Positions 1,481 to 20,532 of a stretch of DNA of 64,000 nt are shown piece after piece. Positions within the stretch are counted from its first letter, which is position 1. Every line of letters begins with the position of its first letter. A program made the position numbers and the translations under genes. Location: the NCBI GenBank assembly GCA_949289565.1, contig CASEOO010000002.1, forward strand, positions 124,001 through 188,000. The letters run 5' to 3'. The notes under the pieces were generated by a model. That model saw only the letters and a program-made list of their open reading frames with translations. It made no database searches and was not told where the DNA came from. The stretch comes from an uncultured Bacteroidales bacterium (GTDB taxonomy: Bacteria; Bacteroidota; Bacteroidia; Bacteroidales; UBA932).

Positions 1481-1481
1481 A

Positions 1482-1499
1482 CAACTTTACGTAAAGTTG
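1482..1499. repeat. 18-bp perfect palindrome
   Basis: CAACTTTACGTAAAGTTG is a perfect palindrome two bases after the Rpn remnant stop. The surrounding sequence repeats ACTTTGAACA twice (near 1474 and 1523), about 49 bp apart. It may be part of a transcription end or a protein-binding site. No function can be read from the sequence. Confidence 0.45.
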
Positions 1500-1516
1500 A
1501 TCGGCTTTAATGAAAT

Positions 1517-1552
1517 ATCCCGACTTTGAACAGACCTCGTCAAAGTCGGGAT
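1517..1552. terminator. Probable bidirectional terminator between recombinase remnant and fimbrial operon
   Basis: A perfect 13-bp stem (ATCCCGACTTTGA at 1517-1529 with its complement at 1540-1552) has a 10-nt loop. Short T-rich stretches follow on both strands but no long T-run. It lies about 80 bp past the end of the leftward fimbrial operon (stop at 1635), so it most likely ends that transcript. Confidence 0.6.
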
Positions 1553-1634
1553 AACTTTATGAACTTAGCAGGATACAGTTCGCCGGAGGCTTACCTTTAG
1601 TCCGGCATGTGTTTGGGGCAGATGATGCCGCAGA

Positions 1635-4600
1635 TCAGTTTGTGTCTTTGACGCAGCGGACGTAGCCGACATCATCATTTCTGTTATTTTGTAACATAAA
1701 TACATCGCTACTGTATATCCAGCCGAAACCTTCTCGCTGTTTGTCTGTATCAGTTGTTTTATAAGGCGGAATGTCCTTCATTGAGAAAGATGTATGACAC
1801 AAATAATAGTTTGGAGTTAATGTGTAAGTCTTTGCCTTTTGCTCTTCCTCAAATCTTATTAGTTCTCCCCACCTAGATGTTCGCTGCCAGTAATATGCTG
1901 TTACTGTATATTGAGGCCACTGGGAAGAAGAAAGTCTTGATGTCATAATTAATAGCTCCCGGTGACTTGGAATGCGATATCCTTCAGGACAAGGATTATA
2001 ATTCTGGTAGCTATTCCAATAGCTATCATTGATTAAATTAGCGCTGGTTTCCCATTCTGTGTTATCTGGAACACTATGAGCAGTTGTGTGTCCGCCATTT
2101 GTTATTTCCGTAATATCGGCACCTTTAATTCCATACGCATCTTTCCCTACAGTGAATTTTCTATATGGTCTGTTATTACTGCCTTTTTCATTGTCAAGCG
2201 GCAATGGCTGACCGCCGTCCATGGATGTCCTAAGTGACTTCGGATTCATACGGGAAAGGTCCATGGTGAATGTTCCGTCACCGTTATCAGTGACTTGTAC
2301 CAGATCTTCGGGCTCTTTATCCGGCTGGTCTATAGGAAGTCCGAGATTTCTGACACACCTGTATGAATAATATGACCCGTTGAGCTCTGTCGAACCGTTG
2401 TCATAGTTGCCTCTGGAGGCGCCTTCCTCTGCCCATAAAACGTTAGGATAGTTGCTTCTGGCAGGGTCTGGACTGCTGGACGTGTAGTGCCAGTAAACCT
2501 TGTCAGTCGGAGGATAGTCGTTGTTTGCAGGGTCGTACGGATAGAGTTTGGACGCTTTATCCAGTGCCCATTCTCCGATGAAGATGTCAGTGAGCTGGTC
2601 TATGGATGCAAGATACCATCTGACTTCCTCCGCGTCGACCTCATCATCTCCGTCAAGATCTCTGTTCCGAAGCAGACAGGCGTATGCCGCATTGTTGTAA
2701 GCCGGATTCAGACCATAACGCTGAGATGTCTGTACTATGTCTGTCCAATTCTTGTTAATCATCCACTGTAAACAGTTCAGCCGCCCGTTGCTATTGTAAG
2801 TGTCTTCGCCAAGTCTGGAAGCTGCCGAGACATCTCCAACCTCCAAACGTCCATTGTATCCGTTGTCTTCTCCTTCCATCACTGATTCAAGACCCCATGC
2901 CGTCTTCAGATCCATGTTCGTAGCATCATATACCGTACGGATAGCTTTCTGAACAAATGAATATACTGATGTCAGCATGCTTGTATTTCCGTCAGGACTG
3001 TAATATTCACCATTCGATTCCACAGGTACTACCATGATATGCATCATCCTGTCGGAGACATCCACACACTTATGCCATAGTTCCGGCTTCGGTGTGCTCT
3101 GATCAGGATCTTCCACTGGATCATAATAGTACAGAAATTCATCTACAAATGCAGTTATGCACACATGGTCCAGCGAGGTGTCGGTTTTCAGAGATGACAG
3201 ATCTGGATCAGTCTTTTTGACGAGTTTAAGATATTTTACCAGCTGGTCTATATCTATCAAATTAGGAACATTGTTCAAGTCTGCGTTTGATGGTTCCCAA
3301 TCCTTGTTATAAATTTTCTCTCCCGGGAATTTCACATACTGACCGTGGCCGACATTGAATTTTCTGTTTATCGCAAATTTTATCCATCTGAAGTCTTCGA
3401 CATCCTTGTACGTATTATCACCGATAGTGTGAACTCCTGAACTGAACGGAGTCTTGATACTCCAGGTCATGCTTTCGGAAACATCCGCAGGACGTATTTT
3501 TAGCAAACAACGGTCATAGTGAGAGTCCAGATAGTAGATTTCGTTGTTGCTATAGACTATATCTCCTTCATATCCGGGACGCACTTCGTTGTCATTGCTG
3601 ACTTCGACAGTAAGGTTGTTCACTCCTTTTACCGTAACGGTATAAGTATATTTGCCGTTACGTCTGGTGTCGTAGTCATTCGGATCTTCAAAATAATATC
3701 CGAGATGTACAATATATCTGGTATCGGTATTGACTACCGTACCGTTTGTTGTATATGACAGATAGCCGGTCAGGATCAGATAAGTGGAGTTTGGGTTGGC
3801 ATATGTGAAGCCGCTGTTTTTATATTCCTGTCCCGGCTTGCTGGAGAAATCACCTTCAAAGGATTGGTCTTGTTTTTCTCGCAATGCATATCCTGCAGGA
3901 CCTGATTCTGTTATTTTTTGTTTGAAATGTTTGCGGTTTTCCGGCATATAGAAAGTAAAACTTCCGCCTTTATAGTAAGATGTGTTGTCATTTTCATCCG
4001 GAACCATTATTTCGAATGCTCTTTCCTCGGTATCGAAATAAGCGGCATCGTCTTCTGAGTAGTCCCAGTCCTTGTCGTCAGTATCTTCCCACGGTCCTTT
4101 TTCAGTCTTACCGTTTGCCTCATCATAAGGCAACAGCAGAGTCTGGGCAGGGACTCTCATCACTCTCCATGTTTTCGGTTCGAAAGAGAAATTTGTCCAA
4201 CTTTTATCGGCTGGTTCCGATGTGACATTTACTACAACTTTCGCATCTACTCTGGTCAGTTCGATTGAGCACCCCAGTTCCGCGTTGCCTCCTTCAGACC
4301 CGATTATGTCAAAAGAGGAATTCCCATCAGAGTCTTTTGCATAGCCGGTCATCATGAACAGAGCGTTACGCTCTATGGTATGGCCGTCTTCCATTCTCAC
4401 TACGACTGATTCCAGTTCATCAAGAGTCTGTATGTCATCCATATCGTCTGTCGTTACATTGAAAGCTGTAGCAGTCGTGGCAGTCGTCAGATTGGCGATA
4501 CCCACTATGGATGCATTTGATACGGAGCCTACCGTAAACGTTACAGAACCTTTGGTGAGATTCCCTTCCGAACCGTCTCCATTGGTCACTGAGAGGCCGT

Positions 4601-4898
4601 TTGACGTAGTGAAGAAACTGAGCGGATTATTATGGTCATCATTGTCTACAGTCGGTACCCTGTTCCCGTCTGAGTCGAATACGAAGACATACATATTGTC
4701 CACGCGGTTTTCATATTCTGCAGACTGGGCGGCCTTGGTCATGACCTGCTCCTGGGACACATTGTAATTCAGTGTCACAGTGGTCGGAATCCCTTCCTGT
4801 ACAGGCATGATATACAATTCTTCCACAGTACAGCTGTACAAAGGAAGAATCATCTGTCCCAGCAGAAACAATATGCTGTATTTTGCAAATCTGTTCAT
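1635..4898 (-). CDS. Large fimbrial tip-like lipoprotein (DUF4906-type) with FISUMP-like C-terminus
   Basis: This 1087-residue protein has a lipoprotein signal (hydrophobic stretch ending LPLYSC, Cys about 23). A fimbrillin-like N-terminal region follows: VMTKAA near residue 55, then NMYVFVFD and FMMTGYA. The C-terminal region carries NPCPEGYRIPSHRELL and ends GYVRCVKDTN, as in FISUMP-type domains. I assign it to the DUF4906-type group by overall layout, from memory rather than a search. It is the last gene of the leftward operon, 12 bp after the preceding fimbrial gene. In related fimbriae the final long genes encode minor tip or accessory subunits that mediate adhesion; that role is inferred. 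The TKA after the lipid-anchored N-terminus resembles protease-processing sites of Porphyromonas-type fimbrillins. Confidence 0.72.
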   Translation of the reverse strand: MNRFAKYSILFLLGQMILPLYSCTVEELYIMPVQEGIPTTVTLNYNVSQEQVMTKAAQSAEYENRVDNMYVFVFDSDGNRVPTVDNDDHNNPLSFFTTSNGLSVTNGDGSEGNLTKGSVTFTVGSVSNASIVGIANLTTATTATAFNVTTDDMDDIQTLDELESVVVRMEDGHTIERNALFMMTGYAKDSDGNSSFDIIGSEGGNAELGCSIELTRVDAKVVVNVTSEPADKSWTNFSFEPKTWRVMRVPAQTLLLPYDEANGKTEKGPWEDTDDKDWDYSEDDAAYFDTEERAFEIMVPDENDNTSYYKGGSFTFYMPENRKHFKQKITESGPAGYALREKQDQSFEGDFSSKPGQEYKNSGFTYANPNSTYLILTGYLSYTTNGTVVNTDTRYIVHLGYYFEDPNDYDTRRNGKYTYTVTVKGVNNLTVEVSNDNEVRPGYEGDIVYSNNEIYYLDSHYDRCLLKIRPADVSESMTWSIKTPFSSGVHTIGDNTYKDVEDFRWIKFAINRKFNVGHGQYVKFPGEKIYNKDWEPSNADLNNVPNLIDIDQLVKYLKLVKKTDPDLSSLKTDTSLDHVCITAFVDEFLYYYDPVEDPDQSTPKPELWHKCVDVSDRMMHIMVVPVESNGEYYSPDGNTSMLTSVYSFVQKAIRTVYDATNMDLKTAWGLESVMEGEDNGYNGRLEVGDVSAASRLGEDTYNSNGRLNCLQWMINKNWTDIVQTSQRYGLNPAYNNAAYACLLRNRDLDGDDEVDAEEVRWYLASIDQLTDIFIGEWALDKASKLYPYDPANNDYPPTDKVYWHYTSSSPDPARSNYPNVLWAEEGASRGNYDNGSTELNGSYYSYRCVRNLGLPIDQPDKEPEDLVQVTDNGDGTFTMDLSRMNPKSLRTSMDGGQPLPLDNEKGSNNRPYRKFTVGKDAYGIKGADITEITNGGHTTAHSVPDNTEWETSANLINDSYWNSYQNYNPCPEGYRIPSHRELLIMTSRLSSSQWPQYTVTAYYWQRTSRWGELIRFEEEQKAKTYTLTPNYYLCHTSFSMKDIPPYKTTDTDKQREGFGWIYSSDVFMLQNNRNDDVGYVRCVKDTN

Positions 4899-4910
4899 GA
4901 TTTTTGTCTC

Positions 4911-5942
4911 CTATTCAAACGGCGGGACTGTAACTGGCCGATCGTCCCATCCCAAGACTGTGAAATCCAGCTGTACACCCATTGTAGTAGTGATTCTTGC
5001 TCTCAGATTCACCTGGGTGTTTCTGATAAAATATGCTGTATTGCTTGCGAACACAAGCGGTTTGTAAATATTGTTGCTAGTCTCCAGCCCGATAGTGAAC
5101 GGACTGTTTCCTTCTGTGAAGTCCGGATGTGTAGGATAAAAATATGCGGACAGAGTCTGAGTCTGAGGCTCTTCTCCATCGGCATTTAGGGCACCGGGAA
5201 TTGTGATTGACAGATTGTCGTATGTCATCCCTGTATATTGTATGCCGTCTGGTACGTCCAGTGTCAGATCTCTGAACATATAATATCTGTCACCGAAAAA
5301 TTCTCCGAAAGACACTTTTCTCAGTGTTACAGGGGATTTAGTGGCATTCTCGACTACGAGGGCGAGTTTTACTACTGACCTGTACAGGTCAATGGTGACA
5401 GACCGGTCTCCTGTCAGTTCCACCGAGGTGTAGCCCGACATCGGAATTCCGTTTTTTACAATATCAGGCCCTCGGGCTGGAAAATGTTTCGGGTTCGCAA
5501 TGTCCGCAAACAGCAGTTTGTGATTTTCGGCAAGGTTTGATGTTATGGTCTCATCATTATATTCCATACCGAGGCTCTCCTCATTGGCTATTGCGTAGAA
5601 TGTAAGGCTGCCGTGAGGCAGGTCAGGTATGGTGGTCGTATATGTAATCAGATTCTCCAGACCGTCAATTTTCTGATTGTATAAAATAGTCCTTGATTCC
5701 GCAGGACCGGAGGTTACGATAATCCTGAGTGTGCGGACACCTTCATATTGCGATGCATCCACATAGTCGCCGTCTGCCTTGGTCCATGGTCCTGTCTCGA
5801 CATCGAGATTTCCTGGCAGGTCTATGCTTAACTGCACTTCTGACGAGTTCTCAGGGGTTATATTCTCCTCGCATGAAGAGAAAGTCCAGAGGACCAATCC
5901 AGTCATGAAAGCCTGTGTGATATGTGAAAAATTCTTTCTCAT
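4911..5942 (-). CDS. Fimbrial subunit lipoprotein (FimA/Mfa-type fold)
   Basis: The 343-residue protein has a lipoprotein signal ending FSSC (Cys about 24). GPWTKADGD lies near residue 52, followed by a region typical of FimA/Mfa1-like proteins: VRTLRIIVTSG, then NGIPMSGYTSVEL near residue 167, where the family usually has a PMTG/PMSG motif. It ends with the common C-terminal strand pattern QLDFTVLGWDD. It lies 12 bp from the genes on both sides in the leftward operon, so it should be co-expressed with the major subunit and the tip protein. It could be a minor shaft subunit or an anchor-type subunit; the sequence does not separate these. Confidence 0.72.
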   Translation of the reverse strand: MRKNFSHITQAFMTGLVLWTFSSCEENITPENSSEVQLSIDLPGNLDVETGPWTKADGDYVDASQYEGVRTLRIIVTSGPAESRTILYNQKIDGLENLITYTTTIPDLPHGSLTFYAIANEESLGMEYNDETITSNLAENHKLLFADIANPKHFPARGPDIVKNGIPMSGYTSVELTGDRSVTIDLYRSVVKLALVVENATKSPVTLRKVSFGEFFGDRYYMFRDLTLDVPDGIQYTGMTYDNLSITIPGALNADGEEPQTQTLSAYFYPTHPDFTEGNSPFTIGLETSNNIYKPLVFASNTAYFIRNTQVNLRARITTTMGVQLDFTVLGWDDRPVTVPPFE

Positions 5943-5954
5943 GACAGGTCGGAT

Positions 5955-6992
5955 TTAGAATTCAACGGAAAAATTCCTTTCGTCCCACTTTACAATGTTT
6001 ACATTCAGTCCAACGTCTGCACCGCTGACCATCAGCGTATATTTGTAGTGCTTACCGGATTCCCATGTGGTGGTTGAGGGTAGGTACACTTCATCGCGTT
6101 GCTCCTGTCCGGTTTCTGTCTGGTATGCAATATCTATTTTGACGGGATTCTCAGCATTCGCACTTCCACCGGGGGTCTGGGGAATGAGAAGCAGGTCTGG
6201 CAAGACTGTGACCGGAGTACCGTCTGACGGCAACGGGTTCTGGATATTATCCTGATTCGCGGAAAAATTGCCTGGCTGAACATTTGATAATTCCGGAATG
6301 CTTGTCAGCAGATTCCATTTGCCGACACCGCTTGTCTGGGTATTGAACTCTCCAAGCATGCTCATGCCGCTAAAAGTAAGTGAGTGCAGGAATACGTCAT
6401 TTCCGTATGCCTTGACGGCAATGCTGACGCGGGACAGCAGATGACTGAATGTGAATTGTACAGGAGCAGAGTTCGGGGTGGTTTCTGAGTATGTCCGGTC
6501 GTGTGATGCTGTCATCAGGTCATGAGAGGCGGTCGGACCATAGTAGTAATTGATGTTCAAGCCTGTCGGACCAGTCAATGTTCCGTCTTTGGAAATAGTG
6601 AAATTCCATTCCAAAGCATCTTTCTCAGACGTGATTTCAGAGGTTTCCAACGAAGACGGAAGCGGATACAAGGCTTCGAAATGCCAGTCGCCCTCTTTCC
6701 AAGTCTGTAATTCAGCGTATGACCAGCTGTTGTCCGATTCTCTATGTACTTTTATATTCTCCATTTGAATTTCAGCAGAACCGTCAGCGGTCTGATAATA
6801 TGCCCATACTGCGAATTCTGACATGTCATCGGCGGAGTTGACGGGGGTTTTGGTGATGGCGGAGGCGAATTCTATATATGTCCTTGTTCCGGACCCGATG
6901 TCGATGCGGGTTTTGGTACACGACGAGGCGGATGCCAGCAGGGACAGGGCGGCTGCGGCATTCAGCAGTGGTATGAGGTTTTTCATATTCAT
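5955..6992 (-). CDS. Fimbrillin family lipoprotein
   Basis: I start the gene at the ATG at 6992 (another ATG is at 6986), because the signal peptide follows directly: MKNLIPLLNAAAALSLLA, then SASSC as lipobox. A longer frame upstream would add a non-signal-like tail over an intergenic palindrome. The mature part has AITKTPVNS near residue 45 and the fimbrillin hallmark FTFSHLLSRVSIAVKA, a strand seen across Fimbrillin_like proteins. It ends VGLNVNIVKWDERNFSV, the usual C-terminal strand with K/E-W-D. At about 345 residues it has normal fimbrillin length. It is the second fimbrillin of the leftward operon and follows the attenuator-like palindrome, which suggests lower expression than the gene before it. 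Confidence 0.82.
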   Translation of the reverse strand: MNMKNLIPLLNAAAALSLLASASSCTKTRIDIGSGTRTYIEFASAITKTPVNSADDMSEFAVWAYYQTADGSAEIQMENIKVHRESDNSWSYAELQTWKEGDWHFEALYPLPSSLETSEITSEKDALEWNFTISKDGTLTGPTGLNINYYYGPTASHDLMTASHDRTYSETTPNSAPVQFTFSHLLSRVSIAVKAYGNDVFLHSLTFSGMSMLGEFNTQTSGVGKWNLLTSIPELSNVQPGNFSANQDNIQNPLPSDGTPVTVLPDLLLIPQTPGGSANAENPVKIDIAYQTETGQEQRDEVYLPSTTTWESGKHYKYTLMVSGADVGLNVNIVKWDERNFSVEF

Positions 6993-7031
6993 CGCGTATT
7001 GTTTTGTGCGGCAGGGCAGGTTGTTATTTAT

Positions 7032-7063
7032 TGTTCCGGCAGATTTCGAAATCTGCCGGAACA
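7032..7063. terminator. 32-bp perfect palindrome between two fimbrillin genes (possible attenuator)
   Basis: Positions 7032-7047 (TGTTCCGGCAGATTTC) and 7048-7063 are exact reverse complements with no spacer. In RNA this gives a GC-containing stem with a small terminal loop, about 90 bases after the upstream fimbrillin gene ends. No T-run follows on the minus strand, so complete termination is unlikely. Partial termination or 3'-end protection of the major-subunit mRNA is more likely. Confidence 0.5.
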
Positions 7064-7154
7064 GCAACACTCGGTCGCGACTAATTCTGGTAAATTCCCC
7101 TGGTATCGGTCTGTGCCAGACATCTGCCTGTGGCATTTTGCCGCATGCAATCGG

Positions 7155-8153
7155 TTATTCTCCTATGAACTGACCGGAATTGTCAGGGTTGTTGACCATG
7201 TTGATGTTTTCATCAGTCCATTTGTTGACAACAGGCGCGTCGAACGTGATGAAGTCGAGGGTCTGGCCGTCAATGGTCACGATGTAGTTGTAGCGATAGC
7301 CTTTGGTCCAAGTATCGGCCGGAATTTTCGCAGTGATGACCTTGTCTACAATAGCTGTGGCTATGCTTGTGCTTGTCAGTACGTTCAAAGTGAATTTGGC
7401 ATAGACGAAATTGTCTGAGAAAGTCTGAGGCATCACTACGCAGTTGTCTACATAGTCTGTAGAAGCAGGCTCTGTTGCCTGAGCTGCACCTTCCTTGAGA
7501 TTTATGCCATTGCCCTCAGCCAGCTGCTCAGAGGCCGCAGTCCATTCGTCGGCTGTTCCTGAAGCATTGAAAGATGCCTTGCTGTTCAGGCCGTAAAGCT
7601 CGAAATCGGAAATGTTCAGAACCACATCTTCAGGGAAACCGCTCTTGATAGTGAACTGAACCATTGAAAACAGATGGTTGAATGTGAATTGCACTTTGTC
7701 CCTTACCGTGCCCTCCGTGCCTGATGATACGTTAGTAGTTTCTGCATAAATGAAGTCTGTCTGATTATCTGTGCCGTTAACTGTGACATCGGAGAAAGTC
7801 AGACCATCCGAGTATGAATACGCAGGAGTGACGGAAACGCCTGAATATGCGTAGAAATTGTAAGTCTGGTTGTCTTCCCACTTCACAAGCGGAGAGTAAG
7901 TCCATTCTCCGTTGGCGTTAGGAGTCACTTCACGTCCGTTTTCGAAGACATCATCATCGGCAGTATAACCACCGTAAACAAAGAAGCTTTTGATGTTGTC
8001 GGTAGTGACTTCGTCAATAATCTTCGTCGGATTGCCGATCCAGGCACTGTCGAAGCCGATGTACTTCGCATCGGAGACCTCGACGGTTTCGGTCTTGGCG
8101 CAGGAGGCGAGCACTGTGCCTGCCGCCGCGGCGATGATCAAAAATTTTTTCAT
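7155..8153 (-). CDS. Fimbrillin family lipoprotein, probable major subunit of leftward operon
   Basis: The 332-residue protein has a clean lipoprotein signal (MKKFLIIAAAAGTVLASC, Cys18). YIGFDSAWIGNPTKIIDEV near residues 31-50 contains the TK motif shared by the fimbrial subunits here. The hallmark strand FTFNHLFSMVQFTIKSG is near residue 160, and the C-terminus has the alternating strand TFDAPVVNKWTDENI. It is the first fimbrillin after the DUF3575-DUF5119 pair, has a 139-bp AT-rich leader of its own, and is followed by a strong palindrome, all of which suit a highly expressed shaft subunit. That role is inferred from position. I found no good TAnnTTTG promoter in the leader. Confidence 0.85.
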   Translation of the reverse strand: MKKFLIIAAAAGTVLASCAKTETVEVSDAKYIGFDSAWIGNPTKIIDEVTTDNIKSFFVYGGYTADDDVFENGREVTPNANGEWTYSPLVKWEDNQTYNFYAYSGVSVTPAYSYSDGLTFSDVTVNGTDNQTDFIYAETTNVSSGTEGTVRDKVQFTFNHLFSMVQFTIKSGFPEDVVLNISDFELYGLNSKASFNASGTADEWTAASEQLAEGNGINLKEGAAQATEPASTDYVDNCVVMPQTFSDNFVYAKFTLNVLTSTSIATAIVDKVITAKIPADTWTKGYRYNYIVTIDGQTLDFITFDAPVVNKWTDENINMVNNPDNSGQFIGE

Positions 8154-8292
8154 AACATTAAAAATTTAATTGTTAGTACTTTAGTTTGGTTTGATTTATC
8201 ATAAAATAATATGTCTGTTTTGTCTGCCGGCATCGTTGCCCGTGAGGGCCTCTGGTCTTTTGCGTGCCGATAGACAATAGCCTGCCGCCCCG

Positions 8293-9381
8293 CTATAGGG
8301 GCAGCACAATATCCTCATAGTCACCCCATCCTCCTACTTCGACATCGAACGCACCTCCGCTTCCGAACTCATCCTCGCTCACCGTCAGGCCCTCCACTTC
8401 GATCACACCTCCGCGCGGCTGGTCCGCCATCTGTCCGGAAATGTCGAATTCGAAGCTCTTCAGACTCCCGTCAGGCAGCATCACTTCGAGATTCAGCCCG
8501 AACACGTCAGGTACATCCCGGGCTGAAAGGCCCTGATAATATTTGTCAGGGTAGTCAGGCACGCCGAAAGTGCTGACCACCGCGCTGACCTCTGAACGCT
8601 CCGCGTCAATGCGTGCGTCATCGAACAGCACAGTCACTTTCTCCGGTCCGGTATGCCCGTTGCGCAGATAGACCGACTCCGCCATCCCTGCCAATGCTCC
8701 ACGCGCCTGCCTGACATGCTCTATCCCCGACTCGAACCTGTACACAATGACATATTTGTACACCAGCGGCCGCAACGTCACCGGCAGGTCCATCAGCGAA
8801 ACACCGGGCGTCCCCTCTATCATGATGTCCTCGATCCATGACCCGAAAAGCATGTCCGGAGAGTTCACTGTGCTCTCTGCCCCGTGATTCTGTGCATAAG
8901 ATGCCCGCGTGCGGGTTCGGGTAGCTGCCGATGCCTCTGCGTATGAATCCATAGAGCTGAATACGATATATTCCGTATCGTCGTTGTAGAGCAGCACAGA
9001 GCGATGACCTTCCCCGACAGGAAGTTCACCGCCTGAGGCGGCAATATGTCTTTCCGTATGATGCCCGTTTCCGTCGTATACGAAAGCTGCCAGTCCGTTC
9101 CCCGGAGAAGGCCGCAAGTCATCATATGCATATCCTGCAGGCGAATCCCAGTCCGTCTCCCAATCCCTGCCGTAATCCCTCTCCCAGGCCAGTTCCCACT
9201 CAGGCTCGACATTCACTTTCCAGTGATCATGGTCGTAGCACAGGTCTTTCCTGCACCCGGAAAGTGCTGAAGCCAGCATGAAGGCAAACGCAGACCATAT
9301 TGCGAACCCGGATGTCGCTTTTCTGAATCCGTCCGTCCTCCTGCGAGGGAGGGAGCTTCTGATAGTGCCCAGTCCTTTCAT
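8293..9381 (-). CDS. DUF5119 domain lipoprotein (fimbrial accessory/anchor, leftward operon)
   Basis: The 362-residue protein has an extended charged N-terminus before the lipoprotein signal (hydrophobic segment ending ALSGC, Cys43). The mature part begins CRKDLCYDHDHW, a start seen in DUF5119 proteins, and ends in an acidic GGWGDYEDIVLPL tail. Its start codon overlaps the stop of the preceding DUF3575 gene by ATGA, so the two are translationally coupled. The counterpart at 12405-13424 has the same position, overlap, length class and acidic WDDIVIDIPI ending. DUF5119 proteins in Bacteroidales sit in fimbrial clusters and resemble Mfa2/FimB anchors; the exact role is not established. An outer-membrane anchor or assembly role is inferred. 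Confidence 0.75.
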   Translation of the reverse strand: MKGLGTIRSSLPRRRTDGFRKATSGFAIWSAFAFMLASALSGCRKDLCYDHDHWKVNVEPEWELAWERDYGRDWETDWDSPAGYAYDDLRPSPGNGLAAFVYDGNGHHTERHIAASGGELPVGEGHRSVLLYNDDTEYIVFSSMDSYAEASAATRTRTRASYAQNHGAESTVNSPDMLFGSWIEDIMIEGTPGVSLMDLPVTLRPLVYKYVIVYRFESGIEHVRQARGALAGMAESVYLRNGHTGPEKVTVLFDDARIDAERSEVSAVVSTFGVPDYPDKYYQGLSARDVPDVFGLNLEVMLPDGSLKSFEFDISGQMADQPRGGVIEVEGLTVSEDEFGSGGAFDVEVGGWGDYEDIVLPL

Positions 9382-10697
9382 CTCGCACCTCCTTTCCTGT
9401 CATCCCAGAGCCGCCACACCAGGGCCAGCTTGAATTTCAGCGGCCCGAACCAGTGCATCTGCGAAGTCTGCTGATAGACATAGTGAGTTCCTCCCATATA
9501 TGGCACAGGCAGATATTCCTCGTATTTCGTATAGAGATAACCAGCCCCGATCCCGGCCTCTATCGACAGCCGTTTCCCGACAGGGAACATATATCCGTAG
9601 CTCAGCCCCACGAAACCGCCTTCACCTTTATAACCACGGCCTCCGTTCTCCAGATCGTACCATGCTCCTCCGGCGAAAGCGCCGAGGTAATGCCCGTGCC
9701 ATGGCTTGCGTGTCCTGAACCACCATCGCGCTTCAGGATATATGGAGGCCAGCTGATAATATTTGTGCGCAGAATCCTTGCTCCACCATGCCACAGCCCC
9801 GTGCGCTGCCACTGTCCATTTCTCGTTTATAAGATATTCAGCCTCCAGCGATGGCATTAGAGCTATGTCAGACAGGAGGTTTGTCTTCAGCGCAAGCCTG
9901 TAATTCCCCGCATCCGAAGTGGCTGCATGCATTGTCTCTTGGTGTGTCTTTCCCTGGAATTCCTGTACAGTCCGTGTCTTGATGCCGGGCCGCCTCAGTG
10001 GATGTCCTGTCTGCGAGATGACAGGGCCAGGCCCTTTGACAGACGGCAGGACCGGCAGCGGCTCAGGGACAGTATAGTATACAGTGACACTTACGCGGCG
10101 CAATTCAGGAAATACATGGTCCATCATGTATCTGAACACATCTCCGCGATGCAGGTCCATAAGCGACTTTTTCCTGCCGCCCGTAATTTTCCCGTCTTCA
10201 ATGACATAAAGAGGCATTTCTTTCACTATGGAAAGAACTTCGTCAGATCCTTTGAAAGCAAGGCCTCCGGCAATGAGCTTCGCCAGCCCGTCCCAGTCCA
10301 CGCCGACGCTGACCGTATCCACCGCAGAATCCGGGAACTTTTCTCCGGTCAGATTTTCAAGCCGCCGCATCACATCTTCCACACGGCGGGCAGAAAGCCA
10401 GTCGTTGTATCTGACAGTGCCGTCAGGCGATGCGTATCCCGTCATGGACATCCGGAAATCAGGAAGATTGCCATACCGCAATATAATTCTTCTCAGGCTG
10501 TCAGTTTTCTGGCCGTTGCCGGCCAATGCTGGATCAGCTTTCCCGCTGCTGATTTCAAAATATATCGTAAGGCTGTCTTTTCGGCCGGTATATGCCGGAA
10601 GATTGCCGGCATAAATATCAATCGTCCCGGACATCAGTATCCAGGACGACAGTATACAAACGCACACAGCCAATCCATGCCTTACCCTTAATAACAT
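9378..10697 (-). CDS. DUF3575 domain protein with OmpA-like N-terminal region (leftward operon)
   Basis: I start at the ATG at 10697. The frame extends upstream only to a TTG at 10733, and that extension would cover a regulatory palindrome. The protein of about 439 residues starts with a secretion signal (MLLRVRHGLAVCVCILSSWI). The first half has an OmpA-like pattern (MSMTGYASPDGTVRYNDW, then LSARRVEDVM). The second half (from about residue 265) is a membrane-barrel-like DUF3575 region with alternating aromatic strands, including LALKTNLLSDIALMPSLEAE and PEARWWF. It probably sits in the outer membrane as an assembly or peptidoglycan-linked anchor. It heads the leftward operon and is the mirror image of 11038-12408. 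Function is not established for the family. Confidence 0.78.
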   Translation of the reverse strand: MLLRVRHGLAVCVCILSSWILMSGTIDIYAGNLPAYTGRKDSLTIYFEISSGKADPALAGNGQKTDSLRRIILRYGNLPDFRMSMTGYASPDGTVRYNDWLSARRVEDVMRRLENLTGEKFPDSAVDTVSVGVDWDGLAKLIAGGLAFKGSDEVLSIVKEMPLYVIEDGKITGGRKKSLMDLHRGDVFRYMMDHVFPELRRVSVTVYYTVPEPLPVLPSVKGPGPVISQTGHPLRRPGIKTRTVQEFQGKTHQETMHAATSDAGNYRLALKTNLLSDIALMPSLEAEYLINEKWTVAAHGAVAWWSKDSAHKYYQLASIYPEARWWFRTRKPWHGHYLGAFAGGAWYDLENGGRGYKGEGGFVGLSYGYMFPVGKRLSIEAGIGAGYLYTKYEEYLPVPYMGGTHYVYQQTSQMHWFGPLKFKLALVWRLWDDRKGGAR

Positions 10698-10698
10698 T

Positions 10699-10714
10699 TT
10701 AAACGTACGTTTAA
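10699..10714. promoter_or_regulatory. Perfect palindromic operator-like site TTAAACGTACGTTTAA
   Basis: This 16-bp perfect palindrome lies two bases upstream of the leftward DUF3575 ATG. Related copies occur about 165-200 bp away ahead of the rightward operon. A dimeric regulator bound here would cover the ribosome-loading region of the leftward gene. The site is visible; the regulator is unknown. Confidence 0.6.
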
Positions 10715-10840
10715 TCTTGAAGAGAGCAGTCAATATGGCTAGGCTCGTTTAAATATTGATATTCAATGTGTATTTATGCTTATTACTCATTAGTTTATGA
10801 AAAATATTCATTTTTAAATCTTAATTTGAAAAATTATAAT

Positions 10841-10848
10841 TACTTTTG
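10841..10848 (+). promoter_or_regulatory. Bacteroidetes-type -7 element, rightward fimbrial operon
   Basis: TACTTTTG matches TAnnTTTG exactly. A TTG at 10826-10828 is only 12 bp upstream, short of the usual 19-20 bp, so the -33 part is weak. Transcription would start near 10855, just before the operator-like copies at 10865-10899, leaving a leader of about 180 nt. Confidence 0.45.
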
Positions 10849-10864
10849 TGGCTCGACTATCGCT

Positions 10865-10899
10865 TTAAACGTACGATTGAAGATTAAACGTACATTTTT
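10865..10899 (+). promoter_or_regulatory. Two tandem near-copies of the fimbrial operator motif
   Basis: TTAAACGTACGATTGA (10865-10880) matches the palindrome at 14 of 16 positions, and TTAAACGTACATTTTT (10884-10899) at 13 of 16. The two starts are 19 bp apart, about two helical turns, so bound proteins would sit on one face. They lie just downstream of the predicted start site, where a bound protein would block transcription. Confidence 0.55.
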
Positions 10900-11037
10900 T
10901 GAGAGTGGGCAATGTTTTTCGAAGGAGTCGTTTTGTGATGTCAGATACCTGTTGGTTTTATCCCCTCCATGTACGCGATGTTTTATTATTATTGATGTGA
11001 ATTGATTTTTGTAAAACGAATTGGCTGACAGTCAGGG

Positions 11038-12408
11038 ATGTGTAGTGTAACACGGGAAATCAAGTTGGTATGTTTCTGCATAGCGGCATTGTCGTTATGC
11101 TCTTTTTCTGTGGCAGGCTATGCTGAGGCCGGCGCTATGGGCAGTACCATGTCTTGTGCATCCAGCGGCGAAACATCTGGGACTGAAGCAAAGCATGATG
11201 CCAGCTTTCAGGAATCATCGCCGGAAACAGATGCCGACGGACCTAAGACCATAGTCAAGACTTTCCAGAAACAGTACACGATATTTTTCAGAATCAATAA
11301 ATGGAACATAGACACTACATTCCGCGGAAACGGCGAGACCATCCGCAGGATGCAGGCCGAGATAGACAGCCTCATCTCAAAAGGCACTATCACGGCTGAT
11401 TCCATTTCCATCGTCTCGGCGGCCTCTCCCGACGGAGGGAATGCCTTCAATGTCTGGCTTTCGAAGAAAAGAGGGCTTTCTACGATGGACCTGCTGGAGG
11501 AAAGATATCCCGACATCGACCCTGAGATCATTTACATCGATCCGACGGGCGAGGACTGGAGCACGTTCCGGAAGGTGGTTTACGAGGACAGGAATATCCC
11601 TGCGCGTGATGAACTGATAGCGCTGATGGAGTCGGACCTGACGAACGATGAGAAGGAAAAGGTCCTGAGAAAGATGGATCCGACATTCAGATATATATTG
11701 AAGCATCATATTTATCTGATGAGGGCCTCGGCGGTGACTTTCAACGTTTCGGTGCCGATGGTGCTGATGCCGCCGATTGCAGGACCGCAGGCATTGGCCG
11801 AAGGCCCGGAAGGAAACATATTGTACCGGCAGGTACAGCCATTGCCGCAGGCTCCGGTAGAAAAGAAAATGATATTGGCCGTCAGGACAAACCTGCTTGT
11901 GCCGGCTTTGAATGTCGGTGTGGAGGTGCCGGCGGGGTACAGCTGGTCGGTGGGCGCGGACTATTATTTCCCGTGGTGGCTGGCCCGGAGCAACAAGTAT
12001 TGTGCGGAGATGCTGGGCTGGTTCGTGGACACGAAGTACTGGTTCGGGAAGGACAGGGGCGAGGAGGATAAGCTGACGGGGCATGCGCTCGGGGCTTATG
12101 CAGGGTTCGGCTACTATGACTATCAGTGGGAGAAAAGCGGGAATCAGGGCGAGTATATAGATATAGGTGTGGACTACACGTATGCGATTCCGCTGGCGAA
12201 GGACAGGCTGAGGATGGAGTTCAACATCGGGCTGGGATGGATTCATACGGTGGCGAGGCATTATACTCCGACAGACGACTATACAGACTTGATCAAGGAC
12301 CCTGGGATCAAGCACCGGAAATACAATTTTTTCGGGCCGACCCGGGCGTCAGTTTCTCTGGTAGTGCCTATACGTGTGAAAGTGAAGCAGAAAGGAGGCG
12401 GGGCATGA
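11038..12408 (+). CDS. DUF3575 domain protein with OmpA-like N-terminal region (rightward operon)
   Basis: The 456-residue protein has a signal sequence (IKLVCFCIAALSLCSFSVAG). A Ser/Glu-rich linker is followed by an OmpA-like segment (YTIFFRINKWNIDTTFRGNG, then IVSAASPDGGNAFNVWLSKK). The C-terminal DUF3575-type barrel region starts near residue 280 with ILAVRTNLLVPALNVGVEV and continues with DTKYWFG and HALGAYAGFGYYDY. It has the same architecture and length as the leftward DUF3575 protein, in mirror orientation. It likely spans or attaches to the outer membrane and supports fibre assembly, but no function is established. The stop overlaps the next start by ATGA. The leader of about 180 nt carries operator-like repeats. 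Confidence 0.78.
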   Translation: MCSVTREIKLVCFCIAALSLCSFSVAGYAEAGAMGSTMSCASSGETSGTEAKHDASFQESSPETDADGPKTIVKTFQKQYTIFFRINKWNIDTTFRGNGETIRRMQAEIDSLISKGTITADSISIVSAASPDGGNAFNVWLSKKRGLSTMDLLEERYPDIDPEIIYIDPTGEDWSTFRKVVYEDRNIPARDELIALMESDLTNDEKEKVLRKMDPTFRYILKHHIYLMRASAVTFNVSVPMVLMPPIAGPQALAEGPEGNILYRQVQPLPQAPVEKKMILAVRTNLLVPALNVGVEVPAGYSWSVGADYYFPWWLARSNKYCAEMLGWFVDTKYWFGKDRGEEDKLTGHALGAYAGFGYYDYQWEKSGNQGEYIDIGVDYTYAIPLAKDRLRMEFNIGLGWIHTVARHYTPTDDYTDLIKDPGIKHRKYNFFGPTRASVSLVVPIRVKVKQKGGGA

Positions 12409-13424
12409 GTGTGCAGAGGATTTTTAAGGTGGCGTCATGCCTGACGCCAATGCGGGTGTCTCCTTCGTTTCTGACTGCGGCTGCGCTGCTCTCGGCTGTC
12501 TTTATTTCAGGAGCGTGCAAGAGGCGGCCGCTGACTGTGGGGGACAACAATGTGCAGGTGAATATCTCTATCGACTATGATATAGTGAATTATCCTGACC
12601 CTGAAGAGCCGGGGATGATGAGGGTGATGTTCTTTGATTCCGAGGATGGCGGCTTCGCTTCCCATGCTTTTCTTCCTGTTTCGGGCGGACGGGTGAATGT
12701 GATACCGGGGAGAACATATCATGTGCTGGCGTACAATTTTGATACTGAGAGCACTATAGTGGGGAACGAGTATCTGTGGCACGGGATTCATGCGACGACC
12801 AACGAAGTGCCCGAGAGTTATAAGAGCCGTCTGAAGAGCCGTGCTGACGCCGACCCTGAAGAGCTGATAGTGTATGAGCCGGACCATCATTATGTGGCGA
12901 GGGAGAGGGATGTTTATGTGCCGGCGAGGAGCGTGGAAGCTCCGCCAGTGGTGATAGACCTGGATGCAAGCACTATTGTGGAGACGTGGAAGGTATATAT
13001 AGACAGGGTGGAGGGAATACAATATGTGGCAAGTGTGGCCGGGGTGATTTCCGGGCTGGCTCTGTCGAACACTCTGGCTTCTGACGAGGAGTCGGAAGAT
13101 AAGGCTTCGGTGTTTTTCGAGACGATGAGCGTGACGAAAGAGGGCGTGCTGGAGATTCAGTTCAATACGTTCGGATATGTGCCGTCGGAGAAGCAGGTGA
13201 TCACGCTGGTAGTTACCGACACTGCCGCGGAAGGCCATGAGTTCAATTTCGATGTGAGCAGCCAGTTCGTGGACAATCCTGAGCAGATCATCAGGGTGAA
13301 TACAGGAGAAGACGGGAATCCGGACATAGTGATAGACGAACCTGATGCTCCTGAAAGCGGGGGAGGCGGCCTGGCGCCTGAGGTGGATGAATGGGATGAC
13401 ATCGTCATCGATATCCCGATTTAG
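12405..13424 (+). CDS. DUF5119 domain lipoprotein (fimbrial accessory/anchor, rightward operon)
   Basis: I use the ATG at 12405, which overlaps the previous stop as ATGA and has AAAGGAGG 7-14 bases upstream, a strong ribosome-binding site that is unusual for this group. A longer frame starting at 12126 lies inside the preceding gene. The 339-residue product has a lipoprotein signal ending FISGAC (Cys about 38), an immunoglobulin-like region with VQVNISIDYDIVNY, and the acidic C-terminus EVDEWDDIVIDIPI. MRVMFFDSEDGGFASHAFLP resembles DUF5119 and Mfa2-type anchor proteins. It is the partner of the DUF3575 protein in both operons, so the two probably act together at the outer membrane. Function is inferred from context. 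Confidence 0.76.
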   Translation: MSVQRIFKVASCLTPMRVSPSFLTAAALLSAVFISGACKRRPLTVGDNNVQVNISIDYDIVNYPDPEEPGMMRVMFFDSEDGGFASHAFLPVSGGRVNVIPGRTYHVLAYNFDTESTIVGNEYLWHGIHATTNEVPESYKSRLKSRADADPEELIVYEPDHHYVARERDVYVPARSVEAPPVVIDLDASTIVETWKVYIDRVEGIQYVASVAGVISGLALSNTLASDEESEDKASVFFETMSVTKEGVLEIQFNTFGYVPSEKQVITLVVTDTAAEGHEFNFDVSSQFVDNPEQIIRVNTGEDGNPDIVIDEPDAPESGGGGLAPEVDEWDDIVIDIPI

Positions 13425-13522
13425 CCTGCAAGAGCCTGTCTCAAGGCAAGATGGAAGAGTTTATTATGCAAACGGAAGGATGCCGGCAATGGTTTTAAAA
13501 AGCAAATGAAGAAAAGGTGAAA

Positions 13523-14908
13523 ATGAGAAGCGGTTTGTTGAAAATATCGATGCTGACGGTGTGGACGGCTATGATGCCGGGCCTGGCTTCCTGTGTCCAG
13601 GAGGCTGTGGTCTATGACGATGCCGTGGCAGAAATCGGCTTTTCCCCTGTGGCAGGCATGGCTACCAAGGCTCTTCCAGGAGCAGTAGACGGGCCTGATG
13701 ATTCCGATTTCGACTATGAGACCATCGGAATTTTCGCTTATCACAAGATCACAGGCACTTCTCAGAATTGGGCGGATTTCTATAATGCGGAAGATGCCGG
13801 CAGTCTGGTGACCTATATCGATGGCAAGCCGTTCGCAAAACCAGCGGATGGAAATTATTGGGCAGGAGGTGCAAATGCCCTCGATATCGAAATTACGAGA
13901 AAAGGCAGAGCCTTGACTGCCAATGTTTCAGCCCCGGCTGACGAATACAAGCATATGCCGAAATATTGGCCGAAAACAGGATATCTGGCCTTTGCCGGCT
14001 ATAGCCCGTATTACAGGCTGAAGATTTCCAAGGCCGAAGACGGGGAACTGACATACGGCACTTCTACGCCTCTGTCTGATGTCAAATATATTGTTGACGA
14101 GCATCATCCGCATCTGAGTATTGAAGGATTCGAACAAGGGAGGTTTGTGTGGGAGAAGGATGATCATTGGGCCACCAATGAGACATTGGATCTGATGTGG
14201 TTCGATGTGAATGACCAGAATACGGCCAATTCATTGACGACACCAGGAATCGGGGTTTCTGAGTCGGCTGTGCCTGTCAAATTCAATCATGCCTGCGCAT
14301 GGATCGATTTTAATTTCAGGGCGAAGGATGAAACAGCTGACGGAAAATTCGTGATCCTGAAGGCTGAACTGAGCAATGTCTACTGGAAAGGGGACTTCAG
14401 TTCTGATATGGCTGAGGGAGAATCTGCGCCTGAGTCGCCGGGGTGGACAAAGCTTGATGGTTTGAGAAATATCACATTGTATTATAACATAGGCTCAGGG
14501 GACAGTTCTTCAGAAGGAGACTGGGGTGAAAAGTTCAATTTTATCACGCTCGATGATTATTTCAGGATCGGCGGAATGATGACCATACCTCAGAACATCA
14601 GCAAGACAGTCGGGGGAGCGTCAATGCATTCGGTGCTCACTGTCTATTATAAACAGCTGACTTCTGACACTGCTTACGAGGCGGCCGAGGACAAATACTA
14701 TAAGGGTACTAAAGAATACGATGAAACCAGCACATTATATAGCGGCACTCCGCTGACCGAGGTCTTTACCTACAGCTTCGACGGGCAGGCCCGATGGGAG
14801 ATGGGAAAACATTATGTATACGATATAGTATTCGGACTGAATGAAATACTGGTGTCTCCGAGCGTGACGGAGTGGGATGATGTGCAGACATCTGTCCCGG
14901 TCCAGTGA
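13523..14908 (+). CDS. Fimbrillin family lipoprotein, first of a tandem trio
   Basis: I use the ATG at 13523 (a GTG two codons earlier is also open). The 461-residue protein has a lipoprotein signal ending PGLASC. EAVVYDDAVAEIGFSPVAGM then ATKALPG follows; the same block recurs in the next two genes. YWPKTGYLAFAGYSPYYRL and the hallmark VKFNHACAWIDFNFRAKD are typical of Fimbrillin_like proteins, and the C-terminus SPSVTEWDDVQ is the usual final strand. It is longer than its two sister proteins (381 and 364 residues) through an insert around residues 95-135. A shaft subunit role is likely. The gap to the anchor gene is about 100 bp with no obvious hairpin. Confidence 0.83.
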   Translation: MRSGLLKISMLTVWTAMMPGLASCVQEAVVYDDAVAEIGFSPVAGMATKALPGAVDGPDDSDFDYETIGIFAYHKITGTSQNWADFYNAEDAGSLVTYIDGKPFAKPADGNYWAGGANALDIEITRKGRALTANVSAPADEYKHMPKYWPKTGYLAFAGYSPYYRLKISKAEDGELTYGTSTPLSDVKYIVDEHHPHLSIEGFEQGRFVWEKDDHWATNETLDLMWFDVNDQNTANSLTTPGIGVSESAVPVKFNHACAWIDFNFRAKDETADGKFVILKAELSNVYWKGDFSSDMAEGESAPESPGWTKLDGLRNITLYYNIGSGDSSSEGDWGEKFNFITLDDYFRIGGMMTIPQNISKTVGGASMHSVLTVYYKQLTSDTAYEAAEDKYYKGTKEYDETSTLYSGTPLTEVFTYSFDGQARWEMGKHYVYDIVFGLNEILVSPSVTEWDDVQTSVPVQ

Positions 14909-14980
14909 TGGAAATGCCGTTCATGGAGGAAAATATGAGACAATATATTGAGTATGAAAGTAAATGAAATTCTAACAGAT

Positions 14981-16126
14981 ATGAAAGCAAGACAATTTTT
15001 TATGGTTGCGGCCGCCGCCGCAATGCTCGCCGCCTGCACGAAGAGCGAGGTGGTCTATGATGACTCGGATGTCGCCATAGCCTTCAGCCCTGTAGCTCAG
15101 ATGTCGACGAAAGCACCGGTGTACGGGCCGATGGATGAAGGTGACGGGACATTGTACAATACTTCAGAGTCATTTGGGGTGACAGCCTTGCACAAGGTTA
15201 CAGATGAGACTTCCTGGGACGACTTTAAAAATGGTGGAGGTATGGTGCTCTATATTGACAAAGGCAAGTTTGTCAACAGGGAAACTGGAGATACATGGGG
15301 CGGAGAGACGCCATATTACTGGCCTAAGACTGGGTTGCTGGCTTTCGCAGGTTTCAGCCCGTATGAATATCTGAATCCATATGTTGTGATTGACGACAGC
15401 CCGAATGTGAAGTTTGATAATTTCGTGCAGGGCACATATGACTATTCTGAAGGTCACCTTACCAACGAGACAGTAGATGCCATGTGGTTCGACTTCGATG
15501 ATCAGTATGCATGCAATTTAGGTTCTGCTGGTCAGGCTTCGACAGGAGTGCAGGTGAAATTCAAGCATGCCTGCTCATGGATAGATTTCACTATGAAAAG
15601 GGATGAAACGATCAAAAATCAGGATGTGCATTTTGTCATAGAGAAGGTGGAACTGACAAATGTCTACACGAAAGGAACTTTCAATTCAAAGTCTACGAGC
15701 TTCAGTACCACCACAGGCGATCCTGCTGTAACTGTACCTGGAAATGAAACACCATGGACTGGCCATGACGAATTGAAAACAATCACTTTGTATGAAAAGC
15801 CAGCCGACGGAAATGGTTATGATCTGACACATATTTCAGGTTCACAGCTTGAAATGCATGATATGATAGCAATACCTCAGCAAATAAATTCTAGAACCGG
15901 AGTTGGGAATATTCAGCTGGTGATTACATATAAACAGTATCCTGTGGCTGCAGGAGTGACTCCTAACTCGGAGACAGTCACCAAGTCTATTACAGGTGAA
16001 ACTGATGCTCAGCACTGGCTGTATGGAAGGCATTATGTTTACAATATCACAATGGGTGTGGATGAAATACTTATCGCGCCTTCTGTTGTGGACTGGGTGG
16101 ATGAAAATAAAACTATAAACAACTAA
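14981..16126 (+). CDS. Fimbrillin family lipoprotein, second of a tandem trio
   Basis: I use the ATG at 14981, which gives a compact signal MKARQFFMVAAAAAMLAAC (Cys19); an ATG at 14954 would lengthen the N-terminus by nine residues. The next residues, TKSEVVYDDSDVAIAFSPVA, are near-identical in layout to the following gene. MSTKAPVYGPMDEGD carries the shared TKA motif, YYWPKTGLLAFAGFSPYEYL follows, and the hallmark strand is VKFKHACSWIDFTMKRDE. It ends ILIAPSVVDWVDENKT. Recent tandem duplication explains the similarity to its neighbours. It is probably a structural subunit; which of the three dominates the fibre cannot be told. Confidence 0.85.
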   Translation: MKARQFFMVAAAAAMLAACTKSEVVYDDSDVAIAFSPVAQMSTKAPVYGPMDEGDGTLYNTSESFGVTALHKVTDETSWDDFKNGGGMVLYIDKGKFVNRETGDTWGGETPYYWPKTGLLAFAGFSPYEYLNPYVVIDDSPNVKFDNFVQGTYDYSEGHLTNETVDAMWFDFDDQYACNLGSAGQASTGVQVKFKHACSWIDFTMKRDETIKNQDVHFVIEKVELTNVYTKGTFNSKSTSFSTTTGDPAVTVPGNETPWTGHDELKTITLYEKPADGNGYDLTHISGSQLEMHDMIAIPQQINSRTGVGNIQLVITYKQYPVAAGVTPNSETVTKSITGETDAQHWLYGRHYVYNITMGVDEILIAPSVVDWVDENKTINN

Positions 16127-16137
16127 ATAACAAGACA

Positions 16138-17232
16138 ATGAAAAAGTTTTTGATCCTCGCGGCGGCTGTTGCAGCAATGGCGGCCTGCACCAAAAGCGAA
16201 GTCGTCTATGACGACAACGACACCGAGATCGGACTGGCTCCGGTGAACTACAAAGCAACGAAACTTTGGGGCCCTATTGATGGTTCGGACTATCCTGTAA
16301 ATGAGAATTTTGCAGTTTTTGCAAAGCACACTACAAGCCCGTCCGGAACATCTTCTAAAACTGACGTGGGAATCACAAAGTGGTATTTGAAGGATGTCGA
16401 ATTCACTCATATGGAAGATAAAATATGGCATGGAAATCCATCGTACTATTGGCCAAAAACAGGGTCTTTGTATTTTATGGGATACAGCCCGGCAGAGATT
16501 AATGATGGTGCTTCAGTAGATTGTGTTATCGAAACTAATTATGATCCATATTTGGTAATAAATGGCTTTGAGCAGAATGACTATTCGTATACAAATGGCG
16601 CAGTCCAGACTCCGACAAATTCCGGATACCCTAATCAAATGTGGGATTTGATGTGGTTTGATCCGTCTGCGAGGTCCTATACATCCACTGATGGTGTACC
16701 GTCAATAACTTTCCATCATGCTCTTTCCCGTATGAGATTTGTCATGACATGTGATGAAGGACTGGAGGATTTGTTCAGAGTGACAAAAGTGGTGTTGAAA
16801 GGTGTAAGAATGAAAGGAAATCTGACAGCGTATGACAATAGCAAGGCTGTGCCTTCGTGGACCTTTGACGATAATAATACTGAAGATTTGACGTTGTATG
16901 ATGTAAATGTAAATGGAAACTCTACATGGCTTCAGAACAATGCCGGATTCAATATTGAAGATGTCCTTTTGATTCCTCAAACTACGGCTGTTATTGAAAT
17001 TTATTATGATCAGAAGCCATATAAAAATGCTCCGGATGAGCTTACAAGCACTCATCTTTATACTGCGACCTTGTCTGGAGGAAGTGACCAGGAAAATATA
17101 TATAATCAATGGGTATACAGCCGTTATTATACTTACCAGTTCCAGTTCGATGCTACGGAAATTAAACTTACACCTACAATTGTAGATTGGGCGGAACTTA
17201 CTTTTGTTAATGGCCAGATACAGAAGAATTAA
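16138..17232 (+). CDS. Fimbrillin family lipoprotein, third of a tandem trio
   Basis: The 364-residue protein starts 11 bp after the previous stop. The signal is MKKFLILAAAVAAMAAC (Cys17), followed by TKSEVVYDDNDTEIGLAPVN and KATKLWGPIDG, matching its two upstream neighbours. The central block YYWPKTGSLYFMGYSP and the strand ITFHHALSRMRFVMTCDE are conserved. It ends IKLTPTIVDWAELTF. The DNA is visibly more AT-rich than the genes on either side, as if it were less ameliorated or under different selection. It is a third paralogous shaft-type subunit. A gap of 70 bp follows before the next fimbrillin, with no strong terminator. Confidence 0.85.
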   Translation: MKKFLILAAAVAAMAACTKSEVVYDDNDTEIGLAPVNYKATKLWGPIDGSDYPVNENFAVFAKHTTSPSGTSSKTDVGITKWYLKDVEFTHMEDKIWHGNPSYYWPKTGSLYFMGYSPAEINDGASVDCVIETNYDPYLVINGFEQNDYSYTNGAVQTPTNSGYPNQMWDLMWFDPSARSYTSTDGVPSITFHHALSRMRFVMTCDEGLEDLFRVTKVVLKGVRMKGNLTAYDNSKAVPSWTFDDNNTEDLTLYDVNVNGNSTWLQNNAGFNIEDVLLIPQTTAVIEIYYDQKPYKNAPDELTSTHLYTATLSGGSDQENIYNQWVYSRYYTYQFQFDATEIKLTPTIVDWAELTFVNGQIQKN

Positions 17233-17302
17233 ATTTCCAGTTTAGTTCTTGGTTTCGACAGATTTATGCCGGAACAGATATTATGTTTTGATTTAAAAAC
17301 TA

Positions 17303-18199
17303 ATGCAAAACTTTTTCAGAACGATATTGCCTCTGGCTGCAGGAGTGCTGATGATGACTTCCTGCCTGTCGTCCGTCAGACCGGATGACAGACAGGGCAT
17401 TGTCAGATTCCGGCCTGTATTGGGCACTGAAGTGCGTTCTGGAAACATTGGCGAAGCCTCTTTCCCCGAAGATATTGCCATAGGCGTATGGGCATTGACC
17501 GACGGGCAGGAGGTCTATATGAATGGCGAGAAAGCAGAGTTTGACGGGGAAGACTGGACTACGGCATCGCCATTCCTGTGGCCGGAAAAAGAATTGAGAT
17601 TCATCGCTTTCGCTCCGTTTGAGGCCGGCGCTGAAGTGAAAGACGGGCGGATAGTCCTTGATGATTATGATTTGTCGGCAGGATCGGCCGGATTTTTCGT
17701 GACAGAAATGACCCCGCCGCACAGCAGGACTGACAGCGCGATACACCTGCCTTTCCGGCTGGCGACTTCGAAGGTGGATTTCCGGGTGGCGAACGGGCTG
17801 AACGAGGCGACGTCTGTGAGAGTGGAGAGAATTACGCTGAAAGGGGTGTATCTGCATGGAAGTTTCGATTCCGAGGCTGATCCTGAGTGGTCGCTCTCTG
17901 GCGAGCCGGCTGATGTAGTGGCTTATGACAGCGCGCGTGACGGGGAAGGACCGGCCGCGACTCGTGATCCGCAGCTTTTCGGACTTACTCTGGAAATCAT
18001 TCCGCAGCAGTCAAAGCCGGTGGTGGAGGTGGTGTATGCATTCCAGACAGCTGACAGCGAGTGGCTTCCTGGGCAGGCCAACACTACCGGGGAGCTGAAG
18101 GCGGAATGGAAGCCGGGCAGGCACTATACCTACACGCTGACTCTCACGGAAACCATAGTGAAGCATTCGCCGGGAATAAGCACGTCGGCAGACATGTAA
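17303..18199 (+). CDS. Short fimbrillin family lipoprotein
   Basis: The 298-residue protein has a lipoprotein signal (MQNFFRTILPLAAGVLMMTSC, Cys21). Fimbrillin-type features include FLWPEKELRFIAFAPFEA, LPFRLATSKVDFRVANG in place of the usual F-x-H strand, and a C-terminal block KPGRHYTYTLTLTETIV. It is shorter than the preceding trio and lacks a final W-D-E strand, so it may be a cap or minor subunit. The TKA motif is replaced by GTEVRSGN, with an arginine at the corresponding place. The stop overlaps the next start as TAATG, which implies translational coupling. Confidence 0.75.
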   Translation: MQNFFRTILPLAAGVLMMTSCLSSVRPDDRQGIVRFRPVLGTEVRSGNIGEASFPEDIAIGVWALTDGQEVYMNGEKAEFDGEDWTTASPFLWPEKELRFIAFAPFEAGAEVKDGRIVLDDYDLSAGSAGFFVTEMTPPHSRTDSAIHLPFRLATSKVDFRVANGLNEATSVRVERITLKGVYLHGSFDSEADPEWSLSGEPADVVAYDSARDGEGPAATRDPQLFGLTLEIIPQQSKPVVEVVYAFQTADSEWLPGQANTTGELKAEWKPGRHYTYTLTLTETIVKHSPGISTSADM

Positions 18200-20471: not shown

Positions 20472-20532
20472 CGTCAGGGTCAGGCAGGGGTGGATGCATT
20501 GTCCGTGAGGACAGCCATAAAAAGAAAGTCAT

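Follow-up and report, generated by a model that had tools for sequence, protein, structure and literature searches.

A predicted invertible promoter between two divergent pilus-type operons of an uncultured Bacteroidales bacterium

In an uncultured Bacteroidales bacterium, a segment bounded by inverted repeats sits between two divergent pilus-type operons. With a probability of about 85%, this segment is an invertible promoter, predicted to be flipped by the Mpi-like recombinase encoded at 355-1008 and serving either the right or the left pilus operon. All coordinates refer to the window, i.e. the whole stretch of 64,000 nucleotides that was analysed (contig CASEOO010000002.1, positions 124,001 to 188,000). 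Inversion, enzyme identity and exclusive expression are predictions made from the sequence, and an Mpi-like phase switch whose target is two-sided is the best explanation of the feature. The predicted switch consists of:

355-1008, forward strand: Mpi-like serine recombinase of 217 aa (PF00239, HTH_7), predicted invertase of the segment
10699-10714: left arm, predicted recombination site, a perfect 16-bp palindrome, TTAAACGTACGTTTAA
10715-10864: predicted invertible core between the sites, with counterparts facing both ways in relatives
10841-10848, forward strand: predicted promoter -7 box TACTTTTG, of the Bacteroides type TAnnTTTG, reading right
10865-10880: right arm, inner site, two mismatches to the left-arm palindrome
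10884-10899: right arm, outer site, three mismatches, 19 bp from the inner site (start to start)

The perfect palindrome, its two tandem near-copies (14/16 and 13/16 matches, 19 bp apart) and the rightward -7 element just before them had all been pointed out in the original prediction, and each was recovered here at the positions listed. The palindrome had been placed 2 bp before the leftward start codon, whereas a single base (10698) actually separates it from that ATG (complement of 10695-10697). As for the half-site CGTTTAA at 10746-10752, it is present in the window but missing from the corresponding stretch of a related genome (G380), and was therefore dropped as part of the element. In 100 dinucleotide-shuffled versions of the window, three palindrome matches never arose (mean 0.08). 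Beyond the window sites, a search of the 2.54-Mb assembly returned only two lone sites with three mismatches, on contigs C14 and C30, which are considered to be at chance level because the reversed-pattern control gave 18 matches per strand. No further copy with fewer than three mismatches was found in the whole assembly, as had been stated for the gaps inspected earlier.

The palindrome copies form inverted repeats (10701-10721 / 10877-10897, plus 10698-10714 / 10865-10881) that enclose the -7 box. The first of these pairs, with 19 of 21 positions matching, is the best 21-nt inverted repeat in 10640-11040, the values being 13 to 17 in 60 dinucleotide shuffles. The sequence of the arm is GTACGTTTAA; from outer edge to outer edge, the segment is 182 or 201 bp long, for the inner or the outer right site, respectively. 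The palindrome copies are most plausibly the arms of an invertible promoter, rather than operators.

Concerning the promoter, the box at 10841-10848 is the sole TAnnTTTG on either strand within 10640-11100 and currently lies 189 bp before the ATG of the rightward operon (arithmetic on coordinates). Among 5000 shuffles of the window core, 24 had a box at one of three adjacent offsets (24-26) before the site. A TTTG -33 box at the usual spacing is absent in the window, and none was found in relatives either; the TTTG at 10825-10828, only 12 nt from the -7 box, was rejected for this role, and no -33 box is claimed.

The two operons flanking the segment have the following genes:

9378-10697, reverse strand: first gene of the left operon, DUF3575 (PF12099), with homologues in G380 and G261 whose alignment begins at residue 1
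1635-9381, reverse strand: remainder of the left operon, five genes downstream of DUF3575
8293-9381, reverse strand: left DUF5119
7155-8153 and 5955-7136, reverse strand: left fimbrillin-like genes
4911-5942, reverse strand: left 343-aa protein, with an Mfa2 match below cut-off
1635-4898, reverse strand: left 1087-aa protein, putative tip protein from its place and size
11038-12408, forward strand: first gene of the right operon, DUF3575 (PF12099)
12408-24159, forward strand: remainder of the right operon, genes downstream of DUF3575
12408-13424, forward strand: right DUF5119
13517-14908, 14948-16126, 17303-18199 and 18199-19404, forward strand: right fimbrillin-like genes
16138-17232 and 19401-20471, forward strand: two right proteins without family match
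20533-24159, forward strand: right 1208-aa protein, putative tip protein from its place and size

Each operon thus starts with DUF3575 and then DUF5119, contains fimbrillin-like genes and has a last gene of more than 1000 codons. Fimbrillin-like pilins (PF13149) were recognised in two left and four right genes, and we infer that both are type V pilus operons. Type V pili and phase-variable surface loci have been described (PMC12632263).

The left operon also differs from its surroundings in its similarity to a relative: window positions 1478-7022 match positions 6700-12253 of locus L123 (G261) over 5.5 kb at 98% identity, whereas identity to G261 falls to about 72% in the recombinase region and at the start of the right operon. 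Because of this difference, it is likely, on sequence similarity, that the far part of the left operon was recently exchanged between species. In G267 (L063, 3349-12530), the recombinase-side operon is of another type, its first gene resembling the right DUF3575 of the window (51%) and not the left DUF3575 (28%). Between the recombinase gene and the left operon, a 93-aa frame (1199-1480) is probably a remnant, its match to the PDDEXK_2 transposase-family nuclease model being confined to the end of that model.

The distribution of the recombinase and of the sites was analysed in a genus set of 400 genomes, drawn evenly from a larger group, recombinase matches being counted at E 1e-60 or better. 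Twenty matches were found, ten with at least 76% identity (the own genome included) and ten with 55-69%. A genome-contig scan with the recombinase gave 11 loci, eight of them from Bacteroidales at 76-86% identity and three distant; by their same coordinates, G061 to G068 correspond to G380, G267, G381, G146, G422, G142, G073 and G415, respectively. Sites occur in all ten genomes with a close recombinase, nine of them having whole sites and G073 a site cut by a contig end. In six of the ten (the window, G380, G267, G261, G381 and G422), both arms lie 8.8-12 kb downstream on the contig of the recombinase, while G146, G415 and G142 have their sites on contigs other than that of the recombinase. 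Contig ends fall at or within the segment in G073, G146 and G415; mixed orientations would give such breaks, but other repeats could do so too.

A 19-bp promoter-site pattern, searched in the genus set with up to three mismatches, was found in 38 of the 400 genomes. Since the reversed control matched more genomes than the pattern did, only the six genomes with 0-1 mismatch were used, the matches at two mismatches (G328 and G243) being left out of the count. Five of these six are among the ten genomes with a close recombinase. The sixth, G357, carries the element and, about 12 kb away on the same contig, a partial recombinase match (residues 1-109, 83%).

Near the ten recombinases of 55-69% identity, no such inverted repeat with a site was found, the contigs L127, L130 and L068 being short. 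Directly before two recombinase genes of 67-69% identity (L136 of G107, upstream of 9304; L137 of G029, upstream of 7477), TAnnTTTG and ACGTTTG...GAACG are present, with no inverted repeat of at least 13 nt there. Searched as DNA, positions 10600-11100 were matched by none of 36 same-genus genomes, and a search of 61 genomes gave, besides the own one, three weak hits from other genera (39-72 bp, E 1e-8 to 4e-4). The 20 kb around each of these three hits were screened for inverted repeats having a CGTA-like core, the only kind recorded around relatives' loci, and none was found.

The geometry of the segment is shared by relatives, where the element also lies between divergent operons downstream of a close recombinase homologue. 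In 11/11 segments, from ten genomes, a TAnnTTTG box precedes a site by 22-24 bp. Inner sites are 166 or 167 bp apart in six of nine complete segments and 161, 162 and 178 bp apart in the remaining three; in seven of the nine, one side or both carry two or more sites (sites with up to four mismatches counted). A central TA is present in all 31 sites of a consensus, although this consensus is partly circular, as the sites were themselves chosen at four mismatches or fewer. In G142, a second segment of the same kind, with 20-nt arms and a box 24 bp before the site, was found on another contig (C54, L073, 4946-5126), so that the same invertase may act at more than one position in that genome.

Both box orientations occur between species. 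With the recombinase taken as reading right, the box points away from it at five contiguous loci (the window, G380, G267, G261 and G422) and towards it at two (G381 and G357). According to tblastn, G381 and G422 have similar flanking genes and opposite boxes. Less firm are the boxes of G415 and G146, both read from contig edges, into a right-type and a left-type operon, respectively, and that on contig C24 of G142, which points towards a recombinase fragment of only 50% identity. Flipping by the predicted recombinase is likely, because the element occurs in both directions among related genomes; as the two orientations come from different species, they may also fit a fixed rearrangement.

It is unlikely that the segment inverts merely as an ON/OFF switch of one operon, the other being transcribed from elsewhere. 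This is the usual kind of invertible promoter in Bacteroidales, as described in PMC4747536, PMC12632263 and PMC8375218, and a tblastn comparison of G357 recognised a pilus-type operon to one side of the segment only, with no second one on the other. In the window, however, a single base lies between the left site and the leftward ATG, leaving no room for an upstream promoter outside the segment; 10640-11100 holds no second TAnnTTTG, and the G381 box reads into the leftward operon. Beyond the far arm in G357 (L122), the sequence looks by eye like the reverse complement of the leader of the right operon in the window, and an operon has perhaps been lost there.

As for the enzyme, the protein encoded at 355-1008 matches PF00239 (120 bits) and PF02796 (HTH_7, 27 bits), each over its cut-off, and aligns with solved DNA-invertases. 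Among NCBIfam models, the protein scores best against NF009949, the Mpi master DNA invertase; since its score of 253 bits is under the cut-off of 272, it is called Mpi-like and not Mpi itself. All nine relatives' recombinases that were scanned are likewise under this cut-off, at 245-264 bits. Flipping by another recombinase of the genome has a lower probability still than a one-operon switch: two further serine recombinase matches, both on contig C42, and five tyrosine recombinase matches are available, and some Bacteroides promoters are flipped by tyrosine recombinases (PMC4747536), but all seven lie outside the window, whereas the sites accompany close homologues of 355-1008 in all ten genus genomes.

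Perfect dyad symmetry and tandem copies beside a promoter would also suit operators of an ordinary dimeric regulator common to both operons, with nothing inverting, but this very improbable model was set aside, as the copies flank the promoter box as inverted arms, the box is found in both directions among relatives and the repeats resemble described recombination repeats (PMC8375218). The earlier proposal of a single dimeric protein choosing between the fibres is probably right in itself; the protein would be an invertase at recombination sites, not a regulator at operators.

With an invertible promoter as the preferred reading, the closest described systems include those of Bacteroides. The motif had been put forward as one for which no regulator was described, but it is close to the repeats of Mpi-type invertible promoters (PMC8375218). 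Mpi of Bacteroides fragilis falls under the same serine recombinase family model and flips promoters (PMC8375218, PMC4747536); its repeats, ARACGTTCGTN, are close but not identical to AAACGTACGTT in the window (PMC8375218). A single mpi gene serves seven capsule promoters (PMC8375218, PMC4747536), whereas the window sites are at one genomic place, between two pilus-type operons. In B. intestinalis, invertible capsule promoters are flanked by GTTCGTTTAA, close but not identical to the arm sequence of the window, over 183-186 bp as against 182 or 201 bp here, and their transcription is reported to start inside the proximal repeat (PMC8375218). As described there, each of them is ON or OFF for a capsule locus, unlike the two-sided target proposed here. 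Fimbrillin family genes are enriched as inverton targets in gut Bacteroidota, and one segment between two pilus operons is not among the invertons described in the accessible part of that report (PMC11892184). A literature search, with subscription papers mostly outside its reach, gave no report of a two-operon pilus toggle.

In Salmonella, the serine invertase Hin flips a promoter and thereby chooses between two surface fibres; hin is located inside the segment that it flips, and a repressor silences the alternative flagellin. In contrast, the recombinase gene of the window is outside the segment, and one promoter would serve two divergent operons. Hin and its swivel mechanism are named in PMC11868660.

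Mechanistically, recombinase dimers bound to the sites on both arms would come together, cleave the DNA at the central TA and religate the segment in the opposite orientation. In the assembled orientation, it is the right operon that would be ON. Inversion would place the box 33 bp (inner site) or 52 bp (outer site) upstream of the leftward ATG, and the tandem right-arm sites would thus give two leader lengths, whose output may differ. In B. fragilis, a switch operated by a tyrosine recombinase has less transcription when more repeats separate promoter and gene (PMC4747536), and by analogy the tandem sites could grade expression.

From this arrangement, we infer an A-or-B toggle between the two type V pilus operons. 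Its fullest form remains tentative and is given somewhat less than an even chance: a dedicated toggle, in which a local Mpi-like invertase would flip one promoter and thereby choose between two complete type V pilus operons, the tandem sites would grade output, and the recombinase-side operon would be a swappable cassette, species trading the alternative pilus and keeping the switch. If true, a single DNA flip would exchange one pilus for another, beyond ON/OFF control, and the system would be an uncultured Bacteroidales counterpart of the Salmonella flagellar switch, with a population state readable from ordinary metagenome reads.
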